From Natronohydrobacter thiooxidans (GTDB lineage Bacteria > Pseudomonadota > Alphaproteobacteria > Rhodobacterales > Rhodobacteraceae): DNA of 64,000 nucleotides. This document shows, one piece after another, positions 40,514-59,382 of the stretch. Under the pieces are notes generated by a model that saw only the letters and a program-made list of their open reading frames with translations, was not told the DNA's origin and did not search any database. Positions within the stretch are counted from its first letter, which is position 1, and the number at the start of each line of letters is the position of its first letter. The position numbers and the translations under genes are program-made. The stretch covers positions 1 to 64,000 of the forward strand of contig NZ_MJAP01000010.1 of assembly GCF_001884735.1 (NCBI RefSeq). Reading direction: 5' to 3'.

Positions 40514-41854
40514 TCACGCGGCGGCTTCGGGGAGGGTTTCAGGTTCGGCCGGGGCTTCGCCCAGCCGCTCGGCTCTCACCTGCGCGAAGGTGCGACCGTC
40601 GCCATCGAGGATCGCTTCCTTGCCGGTCTCGGCCTGCCAGCGCTCGACGGCGACGTCGACATAGGCCGGGCTGATTTCCATCGCGAAGACGCGGCGGCCG
40701 TTGGCTTCGCCCGCCATGATCTGCGAACCCGAGCCCGAGAAGGGCTCGTAGCAGAGGCCGCCCCGCGCCACATGCTGGCGCATCGGGATCCCGAACGCGT
40801 CCAGCGGTTTCGGGGTCGGGTGATCGGGGCGCTCGTCCTTGGCGAAGGACGGCATCTCCCAGGTCGATGGCAGCGTCTGCTCGGCCACCTTCGGCGGGCG
40901 GTTCGGGCGGCGCCAGCCCATGAAACAGGGTTCGTGCTTCCAGAGGTAGTGGGACCGGGTCAGCACGCCGCGGTCCTTCACCCAGATGATCTGTTGGTGG
41001 ACGAAGGCGCCCACCTTCTCCCAGCAAGCCTCCAGCATCGCCTGGCGGCGCGAGGCGTGCCAGCAGTACCAGGCGGCGTTCTCTGCGATCGCCTCGGCGA
41101 CGGCGGCGGCAATGAAGCCGTCGTAGAGTTCCGCCCCCTGCGAACTGTCGTCCCAGGTCGTGCCGTAGGACGCGGACCAGTCCTTGTTGCGGGTCGGATG
41201 GTTCGAGCCGTCGTAATCGACGAGATACGGCGGGTCGGTGGCGAACAGGATCGCGCGCTCACCATTCATCAGGCGGCGCACATCGGCGGCGCTGGTGCTG
41301 TCGCCGCAGAGCAGCCGGTGGTCGCCGAGGATCCAGAGATCGCCGGTGCGCGAGGCCGGATTGCGGGGCGGTTCGGGGATGGTCACCGGCGGCACGGAGC
41401 CTCCGGCGCCACCTTCTTCCCCGTCCCCTTCCGGCACGAAGGCCAGCAGCTTGTCCAACTCGCCGTCGGAAAACCCGACCAGCGACAGGTCGAAATCGTC
41501 CGCCAGCAGGTCGTTCAGTTCCGCCGACAGCAGCGCCTCGTCCCAGGTGCCGAGTTCGGTCAGCTTATTGTCCGCGATCCGGTAGGCCCGGCGCTGCGCC
41601 TCGGTGAGGTGACCCAGCACGATCACCGGCGCTTCGTTCAGCCCGAGCTGCGTCGCGGCGAGGACGCGCCCGTGGCCAGCGATCAGCTCACCATCCTCCG
41701 CAACGAGGCACGGCACGGTCCAGCCGAACTCGGCCATGCTGGCGGCAATCTTCGCGACCTGATCCGCGCCATGCGCCTTCGCGTTCTTCGCATAGGGCTG
41801 CAGGCGCGACAGCGGCCACGTCTCGATCGCGTCCGGGGCGAAGCTCAGCGTCAT
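40514..41854 (-). CDS. ParB-like domain fused to N6/N4 DNA methyltransferase
   Basis: A 446-residue protein. Residues 1-100 are a ParB/sulfiredoxin-like domain with LIAGHGRVLAA (58-67) and AYRIADNKL. A DNA methylase domain follows with catalytic motif DPPY (207-210) and the AdoMet motif FSGSG late in the chain, so it is a beta-class amino-methyltransferase. This fusion is common in prophages of Rhodobacterales and other alphaproteobacteria. Together with the adjacent C5 enzyme it would give the phage two kinds of protective methylation. Confidence 0.92.
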   Translation of the reverse strand: MTLSFAPDAIETWPLSRLQPYAKNAKAHGADQVAKIAASMAEFGWTVPCLVAEDGELIAGHGRVLAATQLGLNEAPVIVLGHLTEAQRRAYRIADNKLTELGTWDEALLSAELNDLLADDFDLSLVGFSDGELDKLLAFVPEGDGEEGGAGGSVPPVTIPEPPRNPASRTGDLWILGDHRLLCGDSTSAADVRRLMNGERAILFATDPPYLVDYDGSNHPTRNKDWSASYGTTWDDSSQGAELYDGFIAAAVAEAIAENAAWYCWHASRRQAMLEACWEKVGAFVHQQIIWVKDRGVLTRSHYLWKHEPCFMGWRRPNRPPKVAEQTLPSTWEMPSFAKDERPDHPTPKPLDAFGIPMRQHVARGGLCYEPFSGSGSQIMAGEANGRRVFAMEISPAYVDVAVERWQAETGKEAILDGDGRTFAQVRAERLGEAPAEPETLPEAAA

Positions 41855-42282
41855 GGTCGGGTGGTTTCCGATGTGATGGTGGATGCCGGTGGCTTCCGGA
41901 CTCCGGATGCCGGGCTGGACTCCGCGAGGGGGCCAGCGGCCACTAGCGGTGTCCGGTCGGAAGGCCAGCGTTCATTGGTGTTTGCGCAGGGCGCGCGCGG
42001 CTCCGGCTTCCAGGTGGCTTCCCAAAAATCCGGCCCTGTCGCTGGCGATGTCCCGCGCTTCGCCCGCCAGCATAGGAATGTCGCCAGGAAGGAACCGGAA
42101 ACTCCCCCGGCGTGGACCCCGGCCGGACTCTCGGTGGATACCGGGGTCCAGAAGGCCCCCTTCAACGCAAAGGGGAGAGCGAGCTTTCCAGCGCACTCTC
42201 CCCATCTTCCCTTCGGAATAGCACGATCATGTTGCAGATGTCGAAGGAAAAAGTGTTGCAACACATTGGAGTCACTGCGCAT
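41851..42282 (-). CDS. doubtful ORF filling the gap upstream of the ParB-methyltransferase gene
   Basis: A 143-residue frame that exactly fills the 417-bp gap: it overlaps the end of the DUF6362 gene and its stop codon overlaps the next start (ATGA). The fit is suggestive, but the composition is poor (many Pro, Ser, Arg; ESSPASGVRKPPASTITSET at the end) and no family is recognised. Otherwise this stretch holds only a palindrome at 42253 and no clear gene. Confidence 0.25.
   Translation of the reverse strand: MRSDSNVLQHFFLRHLQHDRAIPKGRWGECAGKLALPFALKGAFWTPVSTESPAGVHAGGVSGSFLATFLCWRAKRGTSPATGPDFWEATWKPEPRAPCANTNERWPSDRTPLVAAGPLAESSPASGVRKPPASTITSETTRP
42253..42264. promoter_or_regulatory. GTGTTGCAACAC palindrome
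   Basis: A perfect 12-bp palindrome just downstream of the DUF6362 gene and ~400 bp upstream of the methyltransferase start. A second half site TGTTGCA lies at 42230-42236. The size and symmetry suit a dimeric repressor site that separates replication from methylation genes. Confidence 0.4.
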
Positions 42283-42652
42283 TCAGGCGCGCGGCGATCT
42301 TGGTCAGTGCCAGCTGCCAGCGCCGCCACGCGGTCGTGCGGTCGCATCCGAGTTCCCCGCTGATCTGCTTCCACGGCACGCGGGCCGCGCGCGACCAGAC
42401 GAGCTTGCGCTCCGCCTCCTCGATCCAGAGCACCCAGTCGAAGGTCTGCTCGAGCCGGGTGATCGCGGCGGCCGAGGGCCAGACCCGCCTCGGCTGCGGC
42501 TCCATCGCCGCGATCTCGCGGCTGGTCCGCACGATGTCGGGCCAGGTGTTGAAGTAGCCCTGTGCCTTCACCGGCGGCAGCCTGCGCAGGGTGCGGAACG
42601 CCTCCTCGAAATGATCGGCGACGCAGTCGGCGGTCCATTCGCGATCAGCCAT
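42272..42652 (-). CDS. DUF6362 protein
   Basis: A 126-residue protein from ATG 42652 (MADREWTADCVADHFEEAFR). Family features are LPPVKAQGYFNTWPDIVRTS, REIAAMEPQPRRVWPSAAAI and a C-terminal helix-turn-helix CDRTTAWRRWQLALTKIAAR. DUF6362 occurs in replication regions of alphaproteobacterial phages; the HTH suggests a DNA-binding or packaging regulator. It overlaps the next upstream gene by 8 bp. The longer frame from 42829 has no good start. Confidence 0.8.
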   Translation of the reverse strand: MADREWTADCVADHFEEAFRTLRRLPPVKAQGYFNTWPDIVRTSREIAAMEPQPRRVWPSAAAITRLEQTFDWVLWIEEAERKLVWSRAARVPWKQISGELGCDRTTAWRRWQLALTKIAARLNAQ

Positions 42653-42845
42653 GGCGTGCCTCCCTGTCGGAAGGTCGCGGGCCGTAGAGCTTCTCGCCCA
42701 GCTGGCGGACCAGTTCACGCTCGGGCCAGGTGAGGCGGTCGTCATCGGCGGAGACCGCGAGGACGCCCTGTTCCCGCCAGCCCTCGCGCTTGACCTGTTC
42801 GGGATCCCGGCGCCGGCCGCCGTAGCCATGGGGGTGCCATCTCAT
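42645..42845 (-). CDS. hypothetical small phage protein, 66 aa
   Basis: A 66-residue basic protein (MRWHPHGYGGRRRDPEQVKR, then WREQGVLAVSADDDRLTWPE). It starts as ATGA overlap with the resolvase stop codon and ends overlapping the DUF6362 start, so it is clearly part of the operon. It recurs with these neighbours in related phages as far as I recall, but has no assigned function. Confidence 0.65.
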   Translation of the reverse strand: MRWHPHGYGGRRRDPEQVKREGWREQGVLAVSADDDRLTWPERELVRQLGEKLYGPRPSDREARHG

Positions 42846-43474: not shown

Positions 43475-45832
43475 CTATTCTCCCGAGAAAAGGTCAGAGT
43501 TGCTGTCATCGAGGGCGATGCCCCGGAATCCCTTCGCGGCGCGGGTGTTGTGACGCTCGAATCCCCGGACGATCAGGGCTTCCGAGAAGCGCTTGACCGA
43601 GCCTGCGAACTCGCCGTTCGCATCGGCCCACGCCTTCCAGTCGGCGAACATCGCTGAGGTGGTGGCGCTGAGGTGCAACCCGACAGAGCAGCGCTCGTCG
43701 ATCCAGCGACCGATGGCGTCTTCCGCCTCGAAGTAATCCTCGGTCGCGGCCATCACGGCGGGCGGCGGGCGCAGGCCTGTCCGCTGCCATTCGATGCAGC
43801 CCTCGAGCGCCCACGCGAGGATCCCGTCACGTTCGGCCAACAGCCTGTCCGCCAGGTGCTTGTCGCGCCGCGCGGGCGGGATGGTGACTGTGAACGGCAC
43901 CATGTGCAGGCGCCGCTTCATCGCCTCGTCAACGTTGCGGCTGGAGGGCTTGTGGTTGCCGACGATCAGCAGCTTGAACTGCGGGATGAACTCGAAGAAA
44001 TCCTGCCGCATGAAGCGGGCCGTGATCTTGTCGCCCCCGGTCAGCGCCTTCAGCTTGCTCTCGGCCCAGCGGCTGCCCTGTTCCGTTTCGATGGACGTGA
44101 CGATGCGCGCCCCGCGCAGGCCCGCCATGTCGGTCGGGTGGCGATCACCCTGCGTGGCCATGAACATGTCCATCGGCGCGACGGTTGCGTAGTCGCCAAG
44201 GATGGCGGTCAGGGTGTTGGCGAAAACGGATTTCCCGTTTGCGCCGGTGCCGTAGAGGAAGAACAGCGCGTGCTCGGTGGTCACGCCCGTCAGGCAGTAG
44301 CCCGCCATGCGCTGCAGGTAGGATTGCAGTTCGCCGTCCCCGCCCGTGACGGTTTCGAGAAACCCGAGCCAGACCGGGCAAGCGTCGGCGACCGATGCCC
44401 CGGCGATGCGAGTCATGAAGAGGCCGGGGTCGTGCAGCAGCGACGCTCCACTACGCAGGTCGACCACGCCGCCGGGCGTGTTCAATAGCCAGGGATCGCG
44501 ATCCCACGGCTCGGTCGTGGTTGCGTGGCGACGGTCGGAACGGGCAAGCCGCTCCACGGCGGAGACGGTCGCGGCGCTTGAAAGCTTCGCCTTCAGTCGC
44601 GCAGAGCCGGCGCGCGACGCCGCCTCGCGGCAGATCATCCGGGCCAGATCGAAGGCCTGCAGCGTCTCCTCGCGCCGCCAGAGCTTGCCCGACCAGGTCA
44701 GCCATTGCCCCCAGCCGGCGACGTAGCGCCATGTCTCGGCATGTCGGGCTGCGAAGGTTGCGGCGAGCGCATCCTCGGTGAAGCTCACCGGCACTGGCCC
44801 ATCATGCCCGCCGCCAGCAGGGCCGCCGCCATCGGGACTGTCATCCTCGTCACCGATCTCGCCGTTGCGGGCGGCGTCGCGTTTCCAGAGGCGCTCGGCT
44901 TCCTCGCGCAGCCGATCCTCCGGCCAGGGAGGGGCAACGCGGGCCGCGTTGTAGGAGACGATTTCCTCCCACGCCTGTTCGCGCGGCACGTGGCCTTCGC
45001 GGGCACGGCGGATCCAGTAGCCGATCACGCGCGACAGCGCGTCGAACCGGGTGGTGCCATCCACGCCGCCTTCGCGGACCTGGCGGCCGAACAACTCGGT
45101 CACGCTGCCGCGCTCGGTGGCGGCCATGTTGAAATCGAGCCCGTTCTCGCTTTCGAGCGGCGGCATCGCGATGATCGCCTCGAGCAGCTCGCCAAGGTCG
45201 TGATCGCGAGGATCGTGGTTCAGGATCTGCACCAACCGCCGAAGGCCCTGTTTGGCGTGGATCGATCCCGCCACGCGGATCGGCTGGTGTGCGGACCGAA
45301 AGGAAGGATCACCGCCGACCTTCGCGGCGATCATGTGCCGGGCGCGGCAGACCGTGGCGATGTCGTCGCCTTCGGCAGGCTCGGTCAGACGCCAGTAGAG
45401 GTGCAGCTTGCGCTGGCCGTCGGCGGTGACACCACCGGACGCGACTTCGAGTGTCGGGCAACCGAGGTGCTGCACAAGATGGTCGCGCTTCGCGCCGATG
45501 TCGCCATGGTCGAGATCGACCAGCACCACCTGCGTCTGGACGATGCTCTCCGCACGCGCGTCGCCGGGAGCCGCGACTGTGCCGGGCGCCACGAACAAGG
45601 CCATGCCAGCGTCGCTCGCCCATGTCGCCTGAAGCGCGAGTTTCGCGGCTAGCGTGGCGTCCGCTTCGATGAAGGGCACATGCGGCGGGCCATCGCCCGC
45701 GCCTTTCTCTGCGAGCGCACGGACCGGCACCCAGCCGTCGCAGTAGCCGAACACCACGTCGGCATAGATCGCGATCATTTCGGCGTCGGGCGCGACGTCG
45801 TCGGGCGCGATGGTGTCGGATGGGACCGTCAT
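43475..45832 (-). CDS. P4-type primase/helicase with RepB-like primase N-terminus
   Basis: A 785-residue protein. ATG 45832 overlaps the upstream stop codon (ATGA). The N-terminus (VVLVDLDHGDIGAKRDHLVQ, then VASGGVTADGQRKLHLYWRL) is a RepB/AEP-type primase. A DUF5906/D5_N-type region and an SF3 helicase with Walker A YGTGANGKS near residue 525 and a C-terminal FEFIPQFKLLIVGNHKP pattern follow. It would unwind and prime the phage origin. The candidate iteron origin is 20-130 bp from its end. Confidence 0.9.
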   Translation of the reverse strand: MTVPSDTIAPDDVAPDAEMIAIYADVVFGYCDGWVPVRALAEKGAGDGPPHVPFIEADATLAAKLALQATWASDAGMALFVAPGTVAAPGDARAESIVQTQVVLVDLDHGDIGAKRDHLVQHLGCPTLEVASGGVTADGQRKLHLYWRLTEPAEGDDIATVCRARHMIAAKVGGDPSFRSAHQPIRVAGSIHAKQGLRRLVQILNHDPRDHDLGELLEAIIAMPPLESENGLDFNMAATERGSVTELFGRQVREGGVDGTTRFDALSRVIGYWIRRAREGHVPREQAWEEIVSYNAARVAPPWPEDRLREEAERLWKRDAARNGEIGDEDDSPDGGGPAGGGHDGPVPVSFTEDALAATFAARHAETWRYVAGWGQWLTWSGKLWRREETLQAFDLARMICREAASRAGSARLKAKLSSAATVSAVERLARSDRRHATTTEPWDRDPWLLNTPGGVVDLRSGASLLHDPGLFMTRIAGASVADACPVWLGFLETVTGGDGELQSYLQRMAGYCLTGVTTEHALFFLYGTGANGKSVFANTLTAILGDYATVAPMDMFMATQGDRHPTDMAGLRGARIVTSIETEQGSRWAESKLKALTGGDKITARFMRQDFFEFIPQFKLLIVGNHKPSSRNVDEAMKRRLHMVPFTVTIPPARRDKHLADRLLAERDGILAWALEGCIEWQRTGLRPPPAVMAATEDYFEAEDAIGRWIDERCSVGLHLSATTSAMFADWKAWADANGEFAGSVKRFSEALIVRGFERHNTRAAKGFRGIALDDSNSDLFSGE

Positions 45833-46575
45833 GCCCAGCACCGTTCCCGCCATGCACAGAAGCGGCATTCGAAGTGGTCGGGGTCGGCCGTGTGGCGGGG
45901 AAGAAGTTCGCCGGCATCACAGGCGCGCAGGATCGTCACCGCCTTGTCGCTGGCGGACTGGGCGAGTGCGGCATCGAACGGCACGAGTTCGTGCCAGATT
46001 TCGCACGTGTCCTTGTTGATCGCCGTGAAGAACGCGGGCGCCTCGGTCAGGCCGAGATAGGCCTGATAGAGCGCGATCTGCGCGGCGTAGACCGGCTTGG
46101 CCTTCCCGACGCCGTGCTTCGCGATCTCGCGCCAGTTCTTGGCGTTGGCCGACTTGCACTCCCAGAGCGCCGGAACCGTCATGCCGTTCGGCGCGGCGAC
46201 GACCACACCGTCGGCATGCCCCTGGACGCGCCCACCAACGACCGAAAAGCCGAACTGATCGCCATGGCGATTGCGCGTGCGAAGGTCGAACCCGGCCTTG
46301 CGCAGCCAGGTGATGGCCAGGTCCTCGAGAACGTGCCCGAGCGCGAAGATCCGCAGGGACTTGCCCGAGAACCCGGCGCCCGAGTCCTTCGGCGTCTTCA
46401 GGTATTCGTATTGCAGCCTGCGCTGGCAGATGTCGCCCAGCCGGCTTCCCCCGAGATAGTCGCGTTGGGGACGTTCGGCCTGTTCTGCCACGAGGGCGGT
46501 GTCGATGCAGGCATTTGTGGTGTCCGCGAAACTGGGCGGCTTCTCCCGATGGTTGAAGTCGAAACCGGCGCCCAT
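45829..46575 (-). CDS. Cas4/RecB-like PD-(D/E)XK exonuclease
   Basis: A 248-residue protein from ATG 46575 (overlapping the upstream stop as ATGA; the longer frame lacks a ribosome site). The nuclease core reads GRVQGHADGVVVAAPNG with D, then LWECKSAN (E-x-K) and QIALYQAYL (QxxxY motif). An early Cys (DICQRRLQYEYL) and C-terminal CRFCAWRERCW form a Cas4-like Fe-S site. It probably processes DNA ends in phage replication or recombination. Confidence 0.86.
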   Translation of the reverse strand: MGAGFDFNHREKPPSFADTTNACIDTALVAEQAERPQRDYLGGSRLGDICQRRLQYEYLKTPKDSGAGFSGKSLRIFALGHVLEDLAITWLRKAGFDLRTRNRHGDQFGFSVVGGRVQGHADGVVVAAPNGMTVPALWECKSANAKNWREIAKHGVGKAKPVYAAQIALYQAYLGLTEAPAFFTAINKDTCEIWHELVPFDAALAQSASDKAVTILRACDAGELLPRHTADPDHFECRFCAWRERCWA

Positions 46576-46781
46576 CAGAAAGGCACCTCCGGATCGGGCC
46601 GGGGCGCGCTGGTCTGCATCGCCTCCTGGAACCCATCGACGGCGGCCGTCGCGAGTGCGAGCGCCTGTTCTTCGCTGAGATCGGCGAACCGCGTGGTCCA
46701 TCCGATCTCTGCCATGAGTTCGGCCATGTTGCGGAGGGCGGCGCGCAGGGCTGCCTGTTCGCGTTCGTCGGGATCGATCAT
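46575..46781 (-). CDS. hypothetical small protein, 68 aa, first gene of replication operon
   Basis: A 68-residue acidic helical protein (EREQAALRAALRNMAELMAE, then LSEEQALALATAAVDGFQEA). It is the first gene of the minus-strand replication operon and overlaps the nuclease start. No known domain seen; it may be a partner of the nuclease. Confidence 0.62.
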   Translation of the reverse strand: MIDPDEREQAALRAALRNMAELMAEIGWTTRFADLSEEQALALATAAVDGFQEAMQTSAPRPDPEVPF

Positions 46782-47008
46782 GCGCCCACCCCGAGGGAGG
46801 GTGACGCTGGCGTGAGGGAATGCGGGATGGCGCGGCGCGCCGGGTAGATGCTGTTCATGGGAGAGCTCCAGATGCTCTCCTCACCTACCGGCGGGGGTGG
46901 CGGGCTGTCGGATGGCGCGCACAGAACCTTACGGGAACACAATCTTGTGGCGAGCGAGATTCCTACCTAATCTTGCTGACCGTAACAATTTCAGGAGCAG
47001 CGAGGCGG

Positions 47009-48208
47009 ATGCCAGCATTTAACCCAAGGATTTTCAGCAACCCGGATCGCCTCAAGCAGATCGCGCCCGCGCGACTGAAGGCATTTCTTGAGCCTTGGAA
47101 GGACTACTTTCAGTCCCGCAAACTCGACCTCGCCGCATGGTCGACAGATGACATGCCGCTCGAAGCCATCGCGGGTGTCCTGATGAATCCGGACGCGTCG
47201 GTGCCCGAGGACATGGTCAACGCGCTCTATTACGTGCACGAAACCGCGTCCCATGAGGCGATGGACGAACTGCTCGACCGTGCCGCAGCTGCCGGAATCG
47301 AGATCGACAAGGATCACGAGGTCTCGGTAGCCGATGTCTCGGTCCAGATCTGGCTTGCGCAGCCCATGCTGCTGCAGCGCCAGCATGCCGAAACGGTGGC
47401 GTTTCAGCGTTCGAATTTCATGTATTTCGCCGGTTCGCGCCCGAAGAAAAAGGCCGCAGAGCTCCCGTCCATCACGGACGCCATTGCGAAAACCATGCAG
47501 GACCGGATGGACAACTGGTTCGAGGTGAAGCGACGCGGCCGGAACAGCCGCATATTCGCGTTTCCGCGAGGCGAGAAGATCTGGCTGCTCGTACGGCACG
47601 GCATGCCGATGCGCCGGGAAGGCAAGCACCAGGACGACGGTGAAAGCGGGATCGCGTTCTATCGGCCACAACAACATGACGTGCTGATCTACGACAGCGT
47701 GACCGACGAGATCGGCGTAAACGCTGGCACCAAGGGCGAGCGGGAACTTTACCTCAAGGTCTTTGGCGAGGCGTTGTTCGGCAGCGAAGATTACTTCGAT
47801 CGTTCCGAGCGTTACACGCTGGATCCGCTGCGCGAACTCGGTCCGGATTCGATGGCCCATGGCGATGTCGAGGGTATTGCCGGCGTACGTTTCGTGGAGT
47901 TTGGCCGTCGCTGGCCGGGGAAGATCTCCGAAATGGAGATCCGCAAGTGCGAGGATCTGTTCAAGTCGTTTGACGAGAATTGGGAGAAACGGCTTTCTGG
48001 CGGCTCGTTCACGCACGCGACTTTCAAGTTTGCGTTCAAGGACAGCAAGAAGGAGCGGTCCGTGACGATCAGGCCGGCGAACATCGCAAGGTATGAACGG
48101 GACTCGGACGAAGAAGTCATCGAGGCCTGGCTCAAGGCGCGCGGGTTCTGGGCGATTCCGGCAAGGGCGGATGGCGATGAGGATTTCGAAGTTTTGGAAG
48201 ACGCTTGA
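47009..48208 (+). CDS. unknown 399-aa protein, first gene of an opposite-strand cassette
   Basis: A 399-residue soluble protein from ATG 47009, preceded by AGGAGCAGCGAGGCGG; longer in-frame starts back to 46820 are less likely. Predicted alpha helices at the start (RLKQIAPARLKAFLEPWKDY), then VHETASHEAMDELLDRAAAA, a central basic region (NWFEVKRRGRNSRIFAFPRG) and strands such as DVLIYDSVTDEIGVNAGTKG. No nuclease, ATPase or membrane motif is recognised. It is transcribed away from the replication operon and overlaps the next gene, with which it forms a unit ending at a strong terminator. It is a candidate component of an undescribed two-gene system. Confidence 0.75.
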   Translation: MPAFNPRIFSNPDRLKQIAPARLKAFLEPWKDYFQSRKLDLAAWSTDDMPLEAIAGVLMNPDASVPEDMVNALYYVHETASHEAMDELLDRAAAAGIEIDKDHEVSVADVSVQIWLAQPMLLQRQHAETVAFQRSNFMYFAGSRPKKKAAELPSITDAIAKTMQDRMDNWFEVKRRGRNSRIFAFPRGEKIWLLVRHGMPMRREGKHQDDGESGIAFYRPQQHDVLIYDSVTDEIGVNAGTKGERELYLKVFGEALFGSEDYFDRSERYTLDPLRELGPDSMAHGDVEGIAGVRFVEFGRRWPGKISEMEIRKCEDLFKSFDENWEKRLSGGSFTHATFKFAFKDSKKERSVTIRPANIARYERDSDEEVIEAWLKARGFWAIPARADGDEDFEVLEDA

Positions 48209-49301
48209 CGCGCTGACCGACGCAGCGACCGACCGGCGCGAGTGGGCCAGCCTGTTGGGCGATGAATTCGGCTGCGTGGTTGTCAACGAGCCCGGCTGTC
48301 CTCTGCCACTGGTGCGATCGACCGGAACGCCAGCGACGAGCATCGCCTGTCCTTCACCGGGCGGCGAGGGTTGCCCCCGCCGAGTCGTGCACCACGAGGA
48401 CGGCACCATCCGCGCAGTCTGTGGTGACAGCCCCAAGGCCTGCTCCGATCTCGACCTGAACAAGAACGACATCATGATCTACGGCCTCGACCGTGTCGGG
48501 TTGGCGCGCAGCATCGCCGCAGCATTCGACCTGTCCGACCGTCCTGCAAGTTTCGACCGTCGACCGGTCTTCAGGATAGGCTCACATGATGTGTTTGCAG
48601 GCCGGGGTTTTCCTGTCTTCCTGACGGTGCCGGGGCCGCTTGCACGCGAGGACGTGGCGCAATTTGACGAGTTGATTGCCCACCCGGGACCCAAACTACT
48701 GCTGGCCCCGACCTCGTCATCAATCCCGCCGCAACTTGCCGCCGCTCTGGATCGCGAAGGCGTCGTACGCATGGCGCTTGAGGATCTGGTCCACCTTGAT
48801 GACCGCGGGCAATTGCAGCCTTGCCAGCCATCGACCGTCGTGTTCGCCGATCTCCGCGCACAGATTGCGAGCGGGATGGATAACGCAGTGTCCAACCTTG
48901 CGTGGGCGCTGCCGAAAGACGCGCGATGGGAAGAGATCGGAATCCGCTTCGTTGCGGATGAAGTCGTCAATGTCAGCTTCCGCAGCGAGACCCGAAGGTT
49001 CGAGCCTGATGGTCTCGGGATGAAGAGCGCTAAGGACGGCAAGCCCAAAGCGGCGTGGACTTACCTGAAGGCGTTCGCGATGCAGGGCGGCAGGCTCCCC
49101 GTCCATCATGCCAAGAGCGCCGAGACCTCGAGGCACCAGAAGCAGAAGCAGGCGCTGTCCAAGGCGCTGCGTGCCGCCTTCGGGATCGCCGACGATCCGC
49201 TGCCCACGGTCGGGGCCGAGTATGTCGCCCGTTTCGTGGCGAATGCTGACGACCTCCAGCAAGGCAGACAAGGCCAGTCCCGACGAAAATTCGCTGACTG
49301 A
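48171..49301 (+). CDS. unknown 376-aa Cys-rich protein, second gene of the cassette
   Basis: A 376-residue protein from ATG 48171 (GGCAAGGGCGG upstream; ATG 48177 also possible), overlapping the first cassette gene by 38 bp. Six cysteines cluster in residues 35-91 (C35, C43, C60, C68, C84, C91), possibly a metal site. The C-terminal part (AWTYLKAFAMQGGRLP, then KALRAAFGIADDPLP) resembles a winged helix seen at the ends of alphaproteobacterial regulators. No catalytic motif recognised. Because the pair has its own upstream region and terminator, it is likely expressed from the lysogen. A role in phage exclusion is speculation from position. Confidence 0.72.
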   Translation: MAMRISKFWKTLDALTDAATDRREWASLLGDEFGCVVVNEPGCPLPLVRSTGTPATSIACPSPGGEGCPRRVVHHEDGTIRAVCGDSPKACSDLDLNKNDIMIYGLDRVGLARSIAAAFDLSDRPASFDRRPVFRIGSHDVFAGRGFPVFLTVPGPLAREDVAQFDELIAHPGPKLLLAPTSSSIPPQLAAALDREGVVRMALEDLVHLDDRGQLQPCQPSTVVFADLRAQIASGMDNAVSNLAWALPKDARWEEIGIRFVADEVVNVSFRSETRRFEPDGLGMKSAKDGKPKAAWTYLKAFAMQGGRLPVHHAKSAETSRHQKQKQALSKALRAAFGIADDPLPTVGAEYVARFVANADDLQQGRQGQSRRKFAD

Positions 49302-49335
49302 CCTCAACAATTTCTTCGAAAAAGTTCGCCGCTCA

Positions 49336-49374
49336 AGCCGCTGAAATCCAACCCGGGTTTCAGCGGCTTCTCTT
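49336..49374 (+). terminator. intrinsic terminator of the two-gene cassette
   Basis: AGCCGCTGAAA (49336-49346) and its exact reverse complement (49358-49368) form an 11-bp stem, followed by TCTCTTT, 34 bp after the cassette stop codon. This isolates the cassette from the sigma-like gene downstream. Confidence 0.85.
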
Positions 49375-49470
49375 TGTGCTGAGCCCGCCAAGGCCGCCGC
49401 TCCAACGAATTTTCGCCGGTCCCGGTCACTCGGGCCGCGTGCCCGTCCACCTGGACGAAGGCGAAACTTC

Positions 49471-50082
49471 ATGGAGCGTTTCCACCCCATTTGCGACGCG
49501 CGCTCGCGCGTCTCCCGCAACATCATCATCCGGGCCGAACGACTTGCTCGATCAGGTTCGGTCCCCGGCATGGACGCCGAGGACATCAAGCAGGACCTGC
49601 GTCTGCACCTCTATCGCCGAGATGACAGGTTCGACCCCTCCCGCGGTCAGTACGACACGTTCGCAGACCGCGTTCTGGCGAACCGCATCGCCACGCTGGC
49701 CGCGCCGACCGAACGCCTTCGGGCCGAGCGGGCGTGGGTCGACTTCGAGACTCCGTCCGAGGGTCGCGGCGATGACGAGACGCTGCCGCTCGCGGAGACC
49801 CTGCCTGACAGTGTGGCGCTGCACGCCGCCGTCGCGCGTGCACCGGACGAGGCGTTGGGGCTGGTCCGCGATGTCCGGCGCCTTCTCGCAGGGCTGACAC
49901 CGACCTGCAGGGATGTCGCGCTGGCGCTGATCGACATGTCGCCGACGGAGGCAGCCGAGGCCCTCGGGATCCATCGCAGCACAGTCTACGCCCGGCTCGG
50001 CACGATCCGGAAGGCGGCCGAGGCGCTTGATCTCGCGGCATATCTCGGTGCCGCCCCGACAGTCTCGGAGGCCCGCCGGTAG
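49471..50082 (+). CDS. sigma-70-like factor of phage
   Basis: A 203-residue protein with a region-2-like helix (MDAEDIKQDLRLHLYRRDDR, FDPSRGQYDTFADRVLANRI) and a C-terminal region-4-like HTH (LTPTCRDVALALIDMSPTEA then EALGIHRSTVYARLGTIRKA). Domain layout resembles ECF-type sigma factors. It may redirect host polymerase to phage promoters, or act as a sigma-like regulator of late genes. It opens the recombination operon. Confidence 0.8.
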   Translation: MERFHPICDARSRVSRNIIIRAERLARSGSVPGMDAEDIKQDLRLHLYRRDDRFDPSRGQYDTFADRVLANRIATLAAPTERLRAERAWVDFETPSEGRGDDETLPLAETLPDSVALHAAVARAPDEALGLVRDVRRLLAGLTPTCRDVALALIDMSPTEAAEALGIHRSTVYARLGTIRKAAEALDLAAYLGAAPTVSEARR

Positions 50083-50260: not shown

Positions 50261-50554
50261 ATGTTCACGACTTCCCCCCTGAAACGCCTGCGCCAGTCGA
50301 GCTGGATGGAGGCGATCCCCGACACGATCAACGTTCCGGCCCTGTCTGACAGGCCGAATCGCGCGGTGCAGATCGAGCGCGCCACCGTGGACGACATCGA
50401 GTTCGCGCTTGTCGCCCTGGCGCGGCAGCAGTCCGAGCTCTACCGGCTGACGAGTGCGCTTGGCGACGTGTTGAAGATGTCGCGCCGCCAGGGCGCCTGT
50501 GGCGCGGACATCGCCATTTCGGCCGCAGTGCGGGATCTGGAGGGCGGCAAGTGA
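50261..50554 (+). CDS. hypothetical protein, 97 aa
   Basis: A 97-residue protein (VQIERATVDDIEFALVALAR, QQSELYRLTSALGDVLKMSR) mostly helical. Its stop overlaps the start of the Sak4-like gene. The 178 bp before it show no gene. Function unknown; probably part of the recombination unit. Confidence 0.6.
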   Translation: MFTTSPLKRLRQSSWMEAIPDTINVPALSDRPNRAVQIERATVDDIEFALVALARQQSELYRLTSALGDVLKMSRRQGACGADIAISAAVRDLEGGK

Positions 50555-51447
50555 GCGCTCCCTTCGGCGGCGGGCCGCTCCGCATCATCACGGCCGACGA
50601 ACGCCTGCGCGAGGCACGCGGCATCAAGGGGGTGCTCACGGGCACCTCCGGCATCGGCAAGACCACCCAACTGCTGACCCTCGATCCGCAGCGAACGCTT
50701 TTCCTGAACCTCGAGGCGGGCGAGCTGGCCGTGCAGGGCTGGCCTGGCGATGAGGTCCGCATCCGCGACTGGGAGGTCGCCCGCGATCTCGCCGCCTGGA
50801 TCGGCGGCGCCAACCCGGCGATGCGGGACGACCAGTCCTATGGGCCCGGGCACTTCGCGCGGGTCTGCGCGGCCTTCGGTCCCGCTAGCCAGCTCGACAA
50901 GTACGACACCGTATTCGTTGACAGCATCTCCGTCGCCTCGCGCATCTGTTTGCAGTGGTGCAAGGGCCAATCCCAGGCGCAGTCCGACCGCACCGGCAAG
51001 CCCGATCTCCGCGCGACCTACGGGTTGCTCGGCCAGGAAATGATTGGCTGGCTCACGCATCTGCAACACACACCCGCCAAGAACATCTGGCTGGTCGGTC
51101 TGCTCGACCGCAAGCTCGACGACTTCGGCAAGCCTTTCTTCTCGATGCAGATTGAGGGGTCGAAGACCGGCCTCGAATTGCCCGGCATCGTCGACGAAGT
51201 CGTGACCCTGACCGAACTGCGCCCCGAGAAGGGTGACCCCTTCAGGGCATTCATCTGCACCACCATCAACGATTTCGGCCTGCCTGCGAAGGACCGCAGC
51301 GGCCGATTGTCGATGATCGAGCCTGCCCATCTCGGGCGGCTCATGGCGAAGATCCGTGGTCCGCGCCCCGATGGCGCTGCCCGCCTGAACTTCGATCTGC
51401 CCGCGGCCGCCACCGCACCCAATCCCCCGACGACGAAAGGAGCATGA
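50551..51447 (+). CDS. Sak4-like RecA-fold ATPase
   Basis: A 298-residue ATPase with Walker A GTSGIGKTT (31-39) and Walker B YDTVFVDSIS (about 118-127). This minimal RecA-like core (often called AAA_24) is typical of Sak4-type phage annealing ATPases, and the next gene encodes an SSB-like protein, the usual companion. Together with helicase and RecB-like nuclease they would drive phage recombination. Start and stop overlap its neighbours (GTGA-type overlap at 50551, ATGA at 51444). Confidence 0.84.
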   Translation: MSAPFGGGPLRIITADERLREARGIKGVLTGTSGIGKTTQLLTLDPQRTLFLNLEAGELAVQGWPGDEVRIRDWEVARDLAAWIGGANPAMRDDQSYGPGHFARVCAAFGPASQLDKYDTVFVDSISVASRICLQWCKGQSQAQSDRTGKPDLRATYGLLGQEMIGWLTHLQHTPAKNIWLVGLLDRKLDDFGKPFFSMQIEGSKTGLELPGIVDEVVTLTELRPEKGDPFRAFICTTINDFGLPAKDRSGRLSMIEPAHLGRLMAKIRGPRPDGAARLNFDLPAAATAPNPPTTKGA

Positions 51448-52079
51448 CAATGGCGAGCGACATGGATTTCAACGGCGCGGACACTCAGGACGCCGCTTTC
51501 GACCTCATCCCGGCCAACACCCTGGTCAAGGTCTGCCTCACCGTCCGCCCGGGCGGCGCGGGCCCTGAAGGCTGGCTTACCCAGAGCAAGACGAGCCCGG
51601 CCCTCTACCTCAACACCGAGGCAGTCGTGATGGAGGGGCCGTTCGCGCGGCGTCGCATCTACACGCGCATCGGCTTTCGCGGAAAGGCTGCGGGCGGTCC
51701 CGGCGACGACACCTACGGCAACCGCGGGCGCGCCATGATCCGCGGCATCCTCGAATCCGCCCGCGGCGTGCGTGCCGATGACCAGTCTAACGCCGCCCGC
51801 GCCGCGCGGATGATCCGCAGCCTCGGCGAGTTGAGCGGGCTGGAGTTCGTGGCGCGCATCGGCATCGAGCGCGACAAGGACAAGCCCGACGACACCGGGC
51901 GAAACGTCATCAAGGCCGCGCTCGGCGCCGACCATGCCGAATACGCTCGGGTGATGGGCAGCGTACCCCAGCCGCCGCAGCAGGGTCAGTTCACCGCCTC
52001 GGGCCCGCAGCTTGCAGGCAACGGCACGGGTCAGTCGGGCGCGCCGTCCTCCGGCTCCGCGCCCTTCTGGGCACGCTGA
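51444..52079 (+). CDS. SSB-like/DUF669-type single-strand binding protein
   Basis: A 211-residue protein with an N-terminal OB-fold-like segment (NTLVKVCLTVRPGGAGPEGW, RIYTRIGFRGKAAGGPG), a helical middle, and a flexible Gln/Pro/Ser-rich tail ending APFWAR, as in SSB-type proteins whose acidic/aromatic tail recruits partners. It overlaps the Sak4-like gene (ATGA) and fits the Sak4-SSB pair. Confidence 0.75.
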   Translation: MTMASDMDFNGADTQDAAFDLIPANTLVKVCLTVRPGGAGPEGWLTQSKTSPALYLNTEAVVMEGPFARRRIYTRIGFRGKAAGGPGDDTYGNRGRAMIRGILESARGVRADDQSNAARAARMIRSLGELSGLEFVARIGIERDKDKPDDTGRNVIKAALGADHAEYARVMGSVPQPPQQGQFTASGPQLAGNGTGQSGAPSSGSAPFWAR

Positions 52080-52090
52080 GGGGGACGGCC

Positions 52091-53773
52091 ATGATTCCGC
52101 GCGACTATCAAAGGGCGGCGGTCGATGCCGCCCGCGACCGCACCGCCGCACATGGCAATACCATGCTGGTGCTGCCCACCGGGGCGGGAAAGACCGCCAT
52201 CGCCGGTTTCTACATCGGCGAGGAACTGGAGCACCGCAGACACGACCGCGTCCTGGTGCTGCAGCACACCGACGAGTTGATTGATCAGAACCGCAGCGCC
52301 ATCGGCGCTGTCACCGGACTGGCCACCTCGGTGGTCAAGGCCGAGCAGGACGACTGGGAGGGCCGCATCGTCTTCGGAAGCGTCCAGACCCTGGCGCGCG
52401 CCAACCGGCGCGAGCGGATGGCGCCGGTCTCGCATCTCGTCATCGACGAATGCCACCGCTCCGCGGCGCAAAGCTATCAGTCCATCATCGACGAGGCCCG
52501 GGCGCTCAATCCGGAGATCAAGCAGCTCGGGCTCTCGGCCACGCCGGGTCGCGGCGATGGCCGCAGCCTGCGCCGCACCTTCAGCAATGTCGGCTATCAC
52601 CTCAAGATCGGCACGCTGATCGGTCGCGGTCTCCTGGTGCCACCGCGCACCTACACCATCGATCTCGGCGTCGAGGACGAACTGGCGGGGCTGGGCGCCA
52701 CCGCGGGCGATTTCGACATGCGCGCGGCAGACAAGGTGCTGAACCGCTCGGTGCTGAACGAGGCCGTCGTCGAACACTGGCAGGCGAAGGCAGCGGACCG
52801 GCGCACCATCTTCTTCTGTGCGACGGTCGACCATGCCGATGCGGTTGCCGAGGCATTCCGCACGGCCGGCATCACGGCCGAGACGATCTCGGGCGAGATG
52901 CCATCGCGGACGCGCGCCGACCTTATCGCCCGGTTCGACCGGGGCGAGGTGCAGGTGCTGACGAACTGCATGGTCCTGACCGAAGGTTTCGACAGCCAGC
53001 CTGTCGGCTGCATCGGCATCCTGCGCCCCATGCTGCACAAGGGCACCTTCATCCAGGCAGTCGGTCGCGGCCTGCGGCGGGTCGATCCCGCGCGTTTCCC
53101 AGGCATCGTGAAAACCGACTGCATCGTGCTCGACTTCGCGGGCGCAGCGCTCCGGCACGGGTCGCTCGAACAGGAGATCACCCTCGACGAGGACGATCCT
53201 GAGCCCGGCCAGGCACCGTGGAAACTGTGCCCGACCTGTGAGGCCGAATTGCCGCTTGGAGCATCGGTCTGTGATTTCTGCGGTCACGTCTTCACGCGGG
53301 AACGGGCAGAGGCCCGACTGCTGACCGCCTTCGACATGATGGAGATCGACCTGCTGGAGCGGTCCCCGTTCGCCTGGTGCGATCTGCATGGCGACGGCCA
53401 GGCGATGATGGCGAGCGGGTTCAATGGCTGGGCCGGGGTGTTCCATGATGGCGCGCTCTGGCACGCGCTCGGACAGCCGAAAGGCAGGGCGATCCGGCCG
53501 CTCGCCATCGGCACCCGGGTGCAGGCGCTCGCCGCCGCCGACGATTTCCTGCGCGCGACCGAGACAGGGACAGCCTCGATCAAGAGCCGTCGCTTGCTGA
53601 ACGACCCGGCGACGATGAAGCAGATGGACCTGCTGCAGCGCGCGGGGCACGAGGCCAACGGGCTGGATTTCAGCCTGTCGAAATACGCCGCCAACTGCCA
53701 TCTGAACTTCCGTTGGAACCGCGGCGCGATCACCGCCGCCGTTCTTGGCCGTGCGGATCGGTCAGCCGCATGA
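52091..53773 (+). CDS. SF2 DEAD/DEAH helicase with zinc ribbon
   Basis: A 560-residue helicase: Q-type start MIPRDYQRAAVDAARD, Walker A LPTGAGKT (29-36), VIDECHRS (about 117-124), LSATPGRG, then the C-terminal helicase motifs TEGFDSQPV and QAVGRGLRR. At about residues 380-396 there is a Cys-pair zinc ribbon CPTCEAELPLGASVCDFCG. Such phage helicases unwind or remodel replication and recombination intermediates. A small gene overlaps its stop codon. Confidence 0.9.
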   Translation: MIPRDYQRAAVDAARDRTAAHGNTMLVLPTGAGKTAIAGFYIGEELEHRRHDRVLVLQHTDELIDQNRSAIGAVTGLATSVVKAEQDDWEGRIVFGSVQTLARANRRERMAPVSHLVIDECHRSAAQSYQSIIDEARALNPEIKQLGLSATPGRGDGRSLRRTFSNVGYHLKIGTLIGRGLLVPPRTYTIDLGVEDELAGLGATAGDFDMRAADKVLNRSVLNEAVVEHWQAKAADRRTIFFCATVDHADAVAEAFRTAGITAETISGEMPSRTRADLIARFDRGEVQVLTNCMVLTEGFDSQPVGCIGILRPMLHKGTFIQAVGRGLRRVDPARFPGIVKTDCIVLDFAGAALRHGSLEQEITLDEDDPEPGQAPWKLCPTCEAELPLGASVCDFCGHVFTRERAEARLLTAFDMMEIDLLERSPFAWCDLHGDGQAMMASGFNGWAGVFHDGALWHALGQPKGRAIRPLAIGTRVQALAAADDFLRATETGTASIKSRRLLNDPATMKQMDLLQRAGHEANGLDFSLSKYAANCHLNFRWNRGAITAAVLGRADRSAA

Positions 53774-53973
53774 AACGCCCCAATCCGCTCCCGCCCGACC
53801 AGATGACGCCCGCAGAGCGCCGCACCGAGCTGTGCGGCCTGCTGGCGCTCGGGCTGGTTCGTTTGAGGATGCGGGAGATGGGCAAAGTATCTGACGATAC
53901 TGGAGAAAGTTGCCTACACTATCCGCCCGACCAATGCCGTCATGCAACTCCAACTCACCGGAGAGATGCATGA
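53770..53973 (+). CDS. hypothetical small protein, 67 aa
   Basis: A 67-residue protein starting ATGA over the helicase stop codon (MKRPNPLPPDQMTPAERRTE, LCGLLALGLVRLRMREMGKV). The opening is frequently seen just before DUF2924 genes in Rhodobacterales phages. A palindrome and TACACT motif lie within its 3' half. Function unknown. Confidence 0.65.
   Translation: MKRPNPLPPDQMTPAERRTELCGLLALGLVRLRMREMGKVSDDTGESCLHYPPDQCRHATPTHRRDA
53886..53920 (+). promoter_or_regulatory. palindrome plus shared TACACT motif before integration genes
   Basis: AGTATC-TGAC-GATACT (53886-53901) is a perfect inverted repeat; GTTGCCTACACTATCC (53910-53925) repeats motif copies A and B with small changes. CTGACG (53891-53896) and TACACT (53915-53920) are 18 bp apart, which could be a promoter for DUF2924 and the recombinase with the palindrome as operator. 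Confidence 0.42.
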
Positions 53974-54425
53974 ACAAGCCCGATCCCATCCCGGCGCGCC
54001 TGGCCGCGCTCAAGACCACGCCGACGCCGGCGCTGAAGCAGCAATGGCGCGACCTGTTCGACAGCGAGCCGCCGCCCTTCAACCGGCGCTACTTGGAATC
54101 CCGCCTGGCCTACCGCATCCAGGAACTCGCCTATGGCGGGCTGAAACCGGAGACGATCCGGCGGCTGGAAAGATTGGGCGAAGAACTGGACGGCGGCGAC
54201 AAGAAGAAGCGGGGCATCCGCGCCGATCGCGACCGTCCGATCACCGGCACGCGGCTGCTGCGCGAGTGGCAGGGCGTCGAGCAGATCGTCACCGTCACCG
54301 CCGATGGCTTCGAATGGCAGGGGCGGCCGTACAAATCGCTGTCCGCCATCGCACGGGCCATCACCGGCACGCGCTGGAACGGCTGGACCTTCTTCGGGCT
54401 CAAGAACCACAGGGGGCGGACATGA
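53970..54425 (+). CDS. DUF2924 protein
   Basis: A 151-residue protein from ATG 53970 with GGAGAG upstream. DUF2924 features: ALKQQWRDLFDSEPPPFNRR, YLESRLAYRIQELAYGGLKP, and the C-terminal SLSAIARAITGTRWNGWTFF-GLK, a small DNA-interacting fold that recurs in DUF2924. It nearly always precedes a serine recombinase in alphaproteobacterial mobile elements and overlaps its start here, so it may assist integration, but no activity is proven. Confidence 0.88.
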   Translation: MNKPDPIPARLAALKTTPTPALKQQWRDLFDSEPPPFNRRYLESRLAYRIQELAYGGLKPETIRRLERLGEELDGGDKKKRGIRADRDRPITGTRLLREWQGVEQIVTVTADGFEWQGRPYKSLSAIARAITGTRWNGWTFFGLKNHRGRT

Positions 54426-55747
54426 CGAAGCCGCCCGAAAAATCGAAAGTCGTCAGCAAGCTGCGCTGCGCGGTTTACACCCGGAAATCCTCCGAGGAAG
54501 GGCTGGAGCAGGAGTTCAACAGTCTCCACGCTCAACGCGAGGCCTGCGAGGCATACATCGCCAGTCAGCGTTCCGAGGGCTGGGTGCTGGTCCGCGATCA
54601 GTATGACGACGGCGGCATCTCGGGCGGGACGCTGGAGCGCCCCGGATTGAAGCGGCTGCTGGAGGATATCGAGGATGGGCTCGTCGACGTGGTTGTCGTC
54701 TACAAGATCGACCGACTCAGCCGCTCTCTCGCCGACTTCGCCAAGCTGGTCGAGGTGTTCGACCGAAACGGCGTGACCTTCGTCTCCGTCACCCAGTCCT
54801 TCAACACGACCACGTCCATGGGCCGGCTGACGCTGAACATTCTGCTGTCCTTCGCCCAGTTCGAGCGCGAGGTGACGGCTGAGCGAATCCGCGACAAGGT
54901 CGCCGCCAGTCGGAAGAAGGGCATGTGGATGGGCGGTGTGCCGCCCTTCGGCTACCGCGTCGAGAACAGGAAGCTGGTGGTGGACGAAGAGCACGCTGAG
55001 CACGTTCGCTGGGTCTTCGACCGCTTTCTCGAGATCGGGTCCTGCACGGAACTGGCGCGGGAAGTCGGCACGCGCGGCCTCCGGACGCCGCGCGGCAACC
55101 GGATCGACAAGAAATACATCTACCGCATGCTCAGCAACCGCGCCTACATCGGCGAGGCGGTCCACAAGGGCGACAGCTATCCCGGCGAGCACGACGCCAT
55201 CATCGATCCCGAGATTTGGGACCGCGTCCACGCCATCCTGCAGGAGAGCCCCCGCAAGCGCGCCGCCCGCACCCGCGCCGAGACGCCCGCGCTGCTGAAG
55301 GGCCTGCTGTTCGGACCCGACGGCGCGGCATTCTCGCCGACGCATACTCGGAAGGGGGATCGTCTCTACCGATACTATGTCAGTCAAATCGTGCTGAAGC
55401 ATGGTGCTGGTTCGTGTCCGGTCGGCCGCGTGTCTGCGGGCGAGATCGAGGCCGCCGTGATCGGCCAGCTTCGCGCCGTGTTCCGCCAGCCCGAGATCGT
55501 GGCGGGCACATGGAAGGCGGCGCGTGCCCACGCCAACGACATCATCGAGTCCGACGCCCGTGCGGCCCTGCAGCAGCTCGACCCGCTGTGGGACGAACTG
55601 TTCCCCGCCGAGCAGGCGCGCATCGTGGCGCTGATGGTCGAGCGCGTGGATATCGGCACGGACGGATTGAACGTCCGGCTGCGCGTCGACGGCCTCGGCG
55701 GCCTCGCGCGAGAGATGTTGGCTGGAAACATGGGAGCGGCTGCATGA
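54422..55747 (+). CDS. large serine recombinase (prophage integrase)
   Basis: A 441-residue recombinase. Resolvase domain with catalytic Ser in YTRKSSEEG (about S23) and Arg in YKIDRLSRS; then LLSFAQFEREVTAERIRDKV. A Recombinase domain (RWVFDRFLEIGSCTELAREV; YIYRMLSNRAYIGEAVHKGD) follows. The region corresponding to the zinc ribbon reads LLFGPDGAAFSPTHTRKG and lacks the usual Cys pair, as in a common alphaproteobacterial subgroup. It integrates or excises the element by serine-linked strand exchange with a 2-bp core. ATG 54422 overlaps the DUF2924 stop (ATGA). Confidence 0.93.
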   Translation: MTKPPEKSKVVSKLRCAVYTRKSSEEGLEQEFNSLHAQREACEAYIASQRSEGWVLVRDQYDDGGISGGTLERPGLKRLLEDIEDGLVDVVVVYKIDRLSRSLADFAKLVEVFDRNGVTFVSVTQSFNTTTSMGRLTLNILLSFAQFEREVTAERIRDKVAASRKKGMWMGGVPPFGYRVENRKLVVDEEHAEHVRWVFDRFLEIGSCTELAREVGTRGLRTPRGNRIDKKYIYRMLSNRAYIGEAVHKGDSYPGEHDAIIDPEIWDRVHAILQESPRKRAARTRAETPALLKGLLFGPDGAAFSPTHTRKGDRLYRYYVSQIVLKHGAGSCPVGRVSAGEIEAAVIGQLRAVFRQPEIVAGTWKAARAHANDIIESDARAALQQLDPLWDELFPAEQARIVALMVERVDIGTDGLNVRLRVDGLGGLAREMLAGNMGAAA

Positions 55748-57808: not shown

Positions 57809-57838
57809 GTGTTTGAACTTTGAAAGAGGGGCCGCCAA

Positions 57839-59368: not shown

Positions 59369-59382
59369 GCAAAAGGTGATCC

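Follow-up and report, generated by a model that had tools for sequence, protein, structure and literature searches.

A multi-allelic two-gene cassette beside a LexA-type box in the early region of alphaproteobacterial prophages

We find that a prophage of Natronohydrobacter thiooxidans carries in its early region a pair of overlapping genes, here called P1 and P2, which is a fixed early-region part of one phage family and its distant cousins in all loci with enough flanking sequence, and which has multiple alleles that are swapped as one block among near-identical phages. The pair lies in a stretch of 64,000 nucleotides (assembly GCF_001884735.1, contig NZ_MJAP01000010.1, positions 1 to 64,000), referred to below as the window, where a match to IMGVR_UViG_2788500137_000001 of IMG/VR (50,721 bp) places the prophage at about 11.9–62.6 kb. 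We tentatively favor, while granting that it may well prove wrong, the view that P1-P2 is a DNA-damage-induced early module that acts on DNA at the lysis-lysogeny switch.

The unit itself is confirmed, its overlapping genes being preceded by a control region and followed by a strong terminator, and consists of the following features:
47009–48208, plus strand: P1 gene, 399 amino acids (aa), AGGAG 5′ of the ATG
48171–49301, plus strand: P2 gene, 376 aa, counted from the ATG at 48171
46924–46938, plus strand: LexA (SOS) box GAACCTTACGGGAAC, of the form GAAC-N7-GAAC, a motif match 85 bp upstream of P1, where the divergent operons part
46945–46973, plus strand: possible P1-P2 promoter, TTGTGG, 17 bases, TAATCT, found by eye
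49335–49369, plus strand: terminator hairpin of the unit, 15-pair stem
As the pair is conserved across dozens of phage contigs, both open reading frames (ORFs) are genes. They share 38 bases, and 227 bp separates P1 from the divergent gene that starts at 46781. A sequence-only reading of this DNA had described just such a self-contained unit of two genes next to a divergent control region within the early region of a prophage, with overlapping genes of 399 and 376 aa, a strong ribosome site and a 227-bp upstream region divergent from the leftward operon, and the coordinates agree with it on each of these points; the terminator that it proposed is also present, with a stem of 15 pairs where it had given 11 bp. 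The 61-base terminator piece folds with z = −5.1 relative to 200 shuffles. A scan of 46700–49700 with the strict sigma-70 consensus found no promoter and does not list the −35/−10 pair seen by eye. The palindrome CACAATCTTGTG at 46938–46949 was considered as an operator and rejected, since its single match in the window (at most one mismatch) is what chance gives (mean 1.08); this role is further weakened by related sequences preceding different alleles.

Relatives of P1 were found in 57 IMG/VR loci and in 17 loci of GTDB genomes, the hosts of the latter including Jannaschia, Paracoccus, Frigidibacter, Tateyamaria, Chelativorans, Chelatococcus, Allgaiera, Roseibaca, Sphingobium and Sphingopyxis. 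Among 60 related genomes P1 was detected in 4, and a sample of 385 genomes from the class yielded it in 6; both counts include the N. thiooxidans genome, and some of the matches are distant. No relative of P1 or P2 was found among 72,556 plasmid records, nor any relative of P1, the only query used in this case, among 50,697 phage records. In nearly all loci, as far as the contigs extend, the order is the same, with the DUF6511 and Cas4-like genes pointing left and P1, P2 and the sigma-like, Sak4, SSB, helicase and integrase genes pointing right; the exceptions are L042 and L056, where the helicase gene is relocated, and the remnants L046 and L050 (loci carry L numbers). When the best 80 of 119 Cas4 loci were inspected, P1 adjoined the Cas4-like gene in 69; ten of the other 11 lie on contigs that end too near, one of which (L125) holds the first 48 codons of P1, and the last, L099, is interrupted by an insertion. 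This insertion (L099, 1–700) lies beside the position of the LexA box upstream of P1's place and leaves the left operon intact; the inserted ORF is presumably an insertion sequence transposase. The distant relatives L032 and L180 have a leftward integrase gene followed by rightward P1′, P2′, sigma, Sak4, SSB and Cas4 genes. In L182 (8692–10995) and L033 (4108–6321) a single gene of 738–767 aa replaces the pair, followed in L182 by Sak4, SSB, helicase, Cas4 and primase genes. The first half of this long gene is P1-like (hhalign probability 94) and its second half shows no P2 homology (hhalign probability 0.2); a P1-P2 fusion was therefore rejected, as only length and place would speak for it.

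This distribution bears on the earlier suggestion that the pair is defence-type cargo, which finds no support: its place in the phage core is fixed, PADLOC gives no match, and no copy was seen in a defence island, a few contigs being too short to judge (L181 ends inside P1). The possibility that the two genes never occur together elsewhere can be set aside, as they are found as a pair. That they are ordinary phage replication genes, the other possibility raised against the suggestion, is half true, since P1-P2 belongs to the replication and recombination region.

For the comparison of alleles, 110 loci with complete genes were reduced to 62 non-redundant ones, leaving out L004, L005, L032 and L033, and 79 pairs of loci were defined as close by a mean identity of Cas4, Sak4 and primase of at least 95%. 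The identity of P1 in these pairs is either 90–100% (41 pairs) or 41–55% (38 pairs), with none between, while identity is at least 86% for the flanking sigma-like protein (79 pairs), at least 91% for the helicase (41 pairs) and at least 86% for SSB (46 pairs); the 38 discordant pairs come from 22 loci and should not be counted as so many separate events. Clustering at 70% identity divides P1 into eight groups, and as each P2 group (at 55%) is confined to a single P1 group, P1 and P2 travel together. L040 and L081, for example, are 94.0% identical over 7.5 kb to the left and 93.5% over 7.0 kb to the right, and about 50% identical in the middle, a stretch that starts 91 bp upstream of P1 and stops close to the end of P2. 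In six out of ten pairs examined the exchanged block runs from 111–78 bp 5′ of P1 to 82–99 bp 3′ of P2 and so takes in the upstream part, both genes and the terminator; the edges deviate to the left in L103/L106 (−53) and to the right in L040/L081 and L108/L109 (−64 and +26).

The box at the possible P1 promoter fits, by its motif, the boxes of LexA-controlled induction genes. GAAC-N7-GAAC is the alphaproteobacterial type of LexA box in the part of PMC3323433 cited here, and in the corresponding part of PMC3121763 antirepressors are described as prophage genes under direct LexA control. Five mitomycin-induced Paracoccus phages are all described with CI/Cro-type genes (PMC6536676, in part). The window holds two exact boxes. 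After dropping upstream regions below 150 bp and identical ones, 76 distinct regions remained, and 64 of these contain the exact box, compared with a mean of 0.43 and a maximum of 3 in 100 runs of simulated sequences of the same composition; the 76 regions are related by descent, so that the 64 are not independent events. In most lineages the box lies 81–96 bp from P1 and 139–311 bp from the left gene, and a box likewise precedes P1′ in three distant relatives (L032, L180 and L033). In the host genome a box is found 50 bp before the start of recA and 58 bp before the start of a gene identified by its S24 match, which we take from its N-terminus to be lexA.

Neither protein has a recognised domain at the level of sequence families, as had been said of them before: nothing significant came up for either in Pfam, PADLOC, PHROGs, NCBIfam or PDB sequences (best E-values 0.055 and 0.1), and against PADLOC-DB 2.0.0 they matched 0 families. 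The model of P1, built from 30 sequences (mean predicted local distance difference test score, pLDDT, 82.6), nevertheless predicts an RdgC/CENP-N-like fold over approximately residues 67–388. Foldseek matches the model to E. coli RdgC (2owl, E 7.4e-6, TM 0.32–0.42) and a human kinetochore chain (E 2.1e-4), and VIA-align to yeast CCAN chain N (Z 9.9), human CENP-N (Z 9.0), RdgC 2owy (Z 8.4, 226 residues aligned, root-mean-square deviation 5.1) and Iml3 (Z 7.0); among the 12 top-scoring viral models, five bear the name recombination-associated or RdgC. At the sequence level, P1 gives no match to the RdgC model PF04381, and an alignment of 62 P1 sequences shows no homology to that of RdgC (hhalign probability 0.2, E 0.26). 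With lambda RexA, compared by hhalign with a single sequence on one side, the probability is 0.3 (E 0.24), and the RexA structure 8TWQ is absent among the structural matches listed for the P1 model. Lambda RexA, RdgC, Iml3 and Chl4 are described as sharing one DNA-binding fold, and RexA as a phage exclusion protein that can bias lambda to lysis (PMC11077077, in part). P1 would thus resemble a fold class with a precedent in phage control.

P2 (model pLDDT 84.2) contains two segments of interest:
48348–48443, plus strand: four-cysteine motif C60, C68, C84, C91, present in 29 of 29 aligned sequences, possible zinc site
48930–49235, plus strand: probable winged-helix segment, residues 254–355, a match of the model to the OmpR/PhoB-type fold
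The six clustered cysteines noted earlier are present, of which only the four of this motif occur in all 29 relatives, and C43 lies within an 8-residue insertion missing from 25 of the 29; judged from the sequences, the motif possibly forms a metal (zinc) site. The winged-helix-like end that had been proposed has moderate fold support and no match over the Pfam cut-off. Residues 253–361 match OmpR/PhoB entries with Z 4.4–5.7 (the tool's telling level is 8), and Trans_reg_C (PF00486) matches P2′ of the distant relative L004 with E 5.6e-5 and 23.6 bits, below the cut-off of 26.2, and gives no match to P2 of the window. The alpha/beta core resembles PD-(D/E)XK nucleases (Can2 Z 7.4, FokI Z 5.2) or receivers, and the structural Z values of P2 fall in the tool's ambiguous range. 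An active nuclease was rejected, as residues 110–240 hold no catalytic D, D/E-X-K among columns at least 85% conserved in the 29 sequences, and the carboxyltransferase and receiver matches of the model were taken as a common alpha/beta likeness. Foldseek returned nothing below E 1e-3 for the P2 model, and hydropathy indicates no membrane helix (highest 19-residue value 1.15).

The fixed early place, the LexA box, the block exchange, the predicted fold of P1 and the contig's lack of any HTH_3 or S24 match together argue for a module induced by DNA damage. The host LexA would repress P1-P2 in the lysogen, and upon DNA damage LexA would be removed and both proteins made. P1, if the fold prediction is right, would be expected to clamp DNA, and P1 and P2 could jointly act on DNA, pushing the prophage into lytic development or keeping it there, an action that would accompany that of the sigma-like, Sak4, SSB, helicase and Cas4/primase genes. 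Exchange as a block would follow if the two proteins must match each other, and different types may give related phages different induction or compatibility behaviour. The search for repressors on the window's contig took in the two families HTH_3 and S24, which have 17 and 3 matches elsewhere in the genome, and the result fits a phage that leans on LexA, in contrast to the five Paracoccus phages with CI/Cro-type genes.

Several observations weigh against this proposal. The exact box is missing from 12 of the 76 upstream regions; among five of these, L015 and L166 have it with one mismatch, and in L003, L052 and L053 it is absent at this tolerance too. The distant L182 has no box. L040 lacks the box and its near-identical sister L081 has it, which suggests that SOS control is dispensable in some members of the family. 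In one class (L047, L068–L075 and relatives) the box lies 197–198 bp before P1 and 127–129 bp from the left gene and, being nearer to the latter, may serve the left operon. The DUF6362 gene at 42275–42829 has weak helix-turn-helix matches and could be a regulator, and the TM-scores of the P1 fold matches are low (0.23–0.42). In the tenth exchange pair, L116/L105, essentially the genes alone differ and the control region is common, and the winged-helix segment of P2 swaps alone in L052/L077 and L071/L074 with the upstream sequence almost unchanged, and we thus find no allele-specific target.

The upstream regions contain further repeats. A second class, with L047, L068–L075, L088 and L091 among its members, carries the inverted repeat CTATATGTTGT..ACAACATATAG, and in L068, L070, L074 and relatives ATATGTTG-type inverted-repeat arms lie 20-odd bases apart upstream of P1; by eye, the arms change jointly in L070 and L088. 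As a target of P2 this inverted repeat was rejected, since it is common to loci with different P2 winged helices.

An alternative that we regard as unlikely is that P1-P2 is an exclusion, defence or counter-defence pair, with P1 sensing or clamping foreign or host DNA and P2 as its partner. It would be RexAB- or BstA-like, with self-protection inside the cassette and with alleles that arose from adaptation to attackers or hosts. The multi-allelic block exchange and the inclusion of RexA in the fold class of P1 (PMC11077077, in part) make this reading possible, and BstA, a prophage defence gene with matching self-immunity DNA, provides a precedent (PMC8585504, in part). On the other hand, the pair occupies a core position wherever the contig extends and is never seen in a defence island, it has no PADLOC match, P2 is, unlike RexB, not a membrane protein, and the LexA box suggests silence in the lysogen.

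We consider it distinctly unlikely that the pair is a recombination factor, in which an RdgC-like P1 would bind DNA and damp RecA, and hence LexA cleavage, with P2 directing P1 while the phage's Sak4-Cas4-SSB system recombines phage DNA. The predicted fold of P1, the SOS-type box and the Sak4, SSB, Cas4 and RuvC neighbours, found also in the distant L032 and L180, are consistent with such a role, but P1 has no sequence homology to RdgC, and the exchange of alleles, with Sak4 and Cas4 constant, would be left unexplained.

A prophage repressor (immunity) complex, binding prophage operators and with the types as heteroimmune groups, appears improbable to us. The place between divergent operons, the allele exchange, the winged helix and a contig that matches neither HTH_3 nor S24 would suit it; however, the control region in L116/L105 and the winged helix do not follow the allele and the upstream sequence, respectively, which disfavors a simple self-binding repressor, and, behind a LexA box, a repressor would be induced by DNA damage instead of being shut down. 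Also against it, the reading frame of P1 or P2 is broken or gapped in L042, L046, L063 and L108, possibly through sequencing errors or because the prophages are dead. In lambdoid phages, initiator and origin (O/ori modules) are exchanged together, and a replication initiator pair with its origin inside the cassette would likewise adjoin primase-helicase and SSB-like genes, be present wherever the contig extends and have the predicted DNA-binding folds, yet it is very improbable, as the P1-P2 region holds no iteron array, only degenerate two- and three-copy repeats, and there is no match to initiator families.

A second DNA element accompanies the cassette, namely a pair of palindromes around the terminator:
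49284–49293, no strand: palindrome CGAAWWTTCG, first copy, over the last P2 codons
49406–49415, no strand: palindrome CGAAWWTTCG, second copy, before the sigma-like gene
A longer form of the motif has two matches in the window, a number reached in 0 of 100 shuffles. The copies are 116–122 bp apart across loci (122 bp in the window), with the terminator between them. Among 61 distinct regions, which remained after removal of duplicates and of loci where P2 and the sigma-like gene do not stand in order, 54 have both copies, 6 have one and 1 has none, and 114 of the 119 copies in 801 kb of loci lie around the P1-P2 terminator. In L041 and L048 P2 stops earlier and the first copy follows immediately after its stop codon, so that conservation seems to concern the DNA and not the peptide. 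Scanning viral contigs for the palindrome pair yielded 61 stretches, including the diverged L217 (P2 22%, P1 29%); all 61 encode P2 and 58 also P1. The palindrome is absent from the six distant or partial loci L032, L033, L180–L182 and L184. As it is invariant across P1-P2 types, its binder is likely a constant phage or host protein. A bolder form of the proposed damage-induced module would be a new type of lysis-lysogeny specificity locus, in which LexA replaces the phage repressor, a cassette of at least eight types, made up of an RdgC/RexA-fold protein and its winged-helix partner, sets the mode of induction and the sister phages with which the prophage can be induced or coexist, and the CGAAWWTTCG pair is the constant DNA target of the module; this we put forward as a possibility that we ourselves doubt.

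Among known systems, RdgC (PF04381) and phage RdgC-like proteins resemble P1 in predicted fold and in their place beside phage recombination genes, and differ in that they share no sequence or profile similarity with P1, which is extended at its N-terminus by a helical part and has P2 as a constant partner; RdgC itself was found in 0 of 40 related genomes. Lambda RexA-RexB is also a two-gene phage unit near the switch, and RexA has the RdgC/Iml3/Chl4 fold (PMC11077077, in part). However, P1 and RexA are not similar in sequence, P2 by hydropathy lacks any membrane helix whereas RexB has four, and P1-P2 has a LexA box in place of CI control and no CI-type gene beside it, as judged by HTH_3 and S24. 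The LexA-controlled antirepressors of Gifsy prophages link SOS to induction through a prophage gene, as P1-P2 would, but they are, as far as PMC3121763 is cited here, small single proteins encoded outside the immunity region that act on a known repressor, whereas P1 and P2 are two larger proteins and HTH_3 and S24 reveal no repressor. BstA with aba resembles the cassette, by description only, in being prophage-encoded and in having variant types, which in BstA each come with matching self-immunity DNA inside the locus, and differs as a single gene with demonstrated abortive infection (PMC8585504, in part). Among the open-access titles and abstract openings listed by literature searches, none described the P1-P2 pair. 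SOS-wired prophage control genes and phage proteins of the RdgC/RexA fold are known, while the two combined in an exchangeable core cassette did not turn up in these searches. We point out that P1-P2 is a pair without a family name that is constant in a group of prophages whose hosts are Rhodobacterales and certain other alphaproteobacteria. Should the pair govern induction or compatibility, it would be an alphaproteobacterial counterpart, built from other proteins, of the lambdoid immunity regions, and the RdgC/RexA fold would be tied to prophage control in a second system.

The genes on either side are as follows:
46575–46781, minus strand: DUF6511 gene, divergent neighbour, family/profile match
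45829 to about 46578 (start approximate), minus strand: Cas4-like exonuclease gene, divergent neighbour, family/profile match
49471–50082, plus strand: sigma-factor-like gene after the terminator, Sigma70_r2 24.9 bits (cut-off 24), phrog_1740 RNA polymerase sigma factor 4.8e-11
50551–55747, plus strand: Sak4-like, SSB-like, helicase and serine integrase genes, in the same early region as P1-P2
The left operon, transcribed away from P1, comprises the DUF6511 gene, the Cas4-like exonuclease, a D5-type primase-helicase and a RuvC-like resolvase, and to the right of P1-P2, in the same direction, follow the sigma-like gene, a Sak4-like annealing protein, an SSB-like protein, a helicase and a large serine integrase. 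The label SSB-like for 51444–52079 is our own reading, as phrog_2300 carries no function name. After the integrase, at 56450–62612, genes for a cytosine-5 methyltransferase, a HATPase (HATPase_c_3), a Z1-domain protein and a DUF4420 protein (PD-(D/E)XK) stand in a row that looks like a restriction-type system and appears a better defence candidate than P1-P2. Within the left operon, at 40514–41854, a ParB-like N-terminal part is fused to an N6/N4 DNA methyltransferase. The best match of both the Cas4-like (45829–46578) and the Sak4-like protein (50551–51447) among isolated phages is Acidithiobacillus phage AcaML1, at about 56%, and the Sak4-like protein is also found in Wolbachia phage WO, at about 49%.

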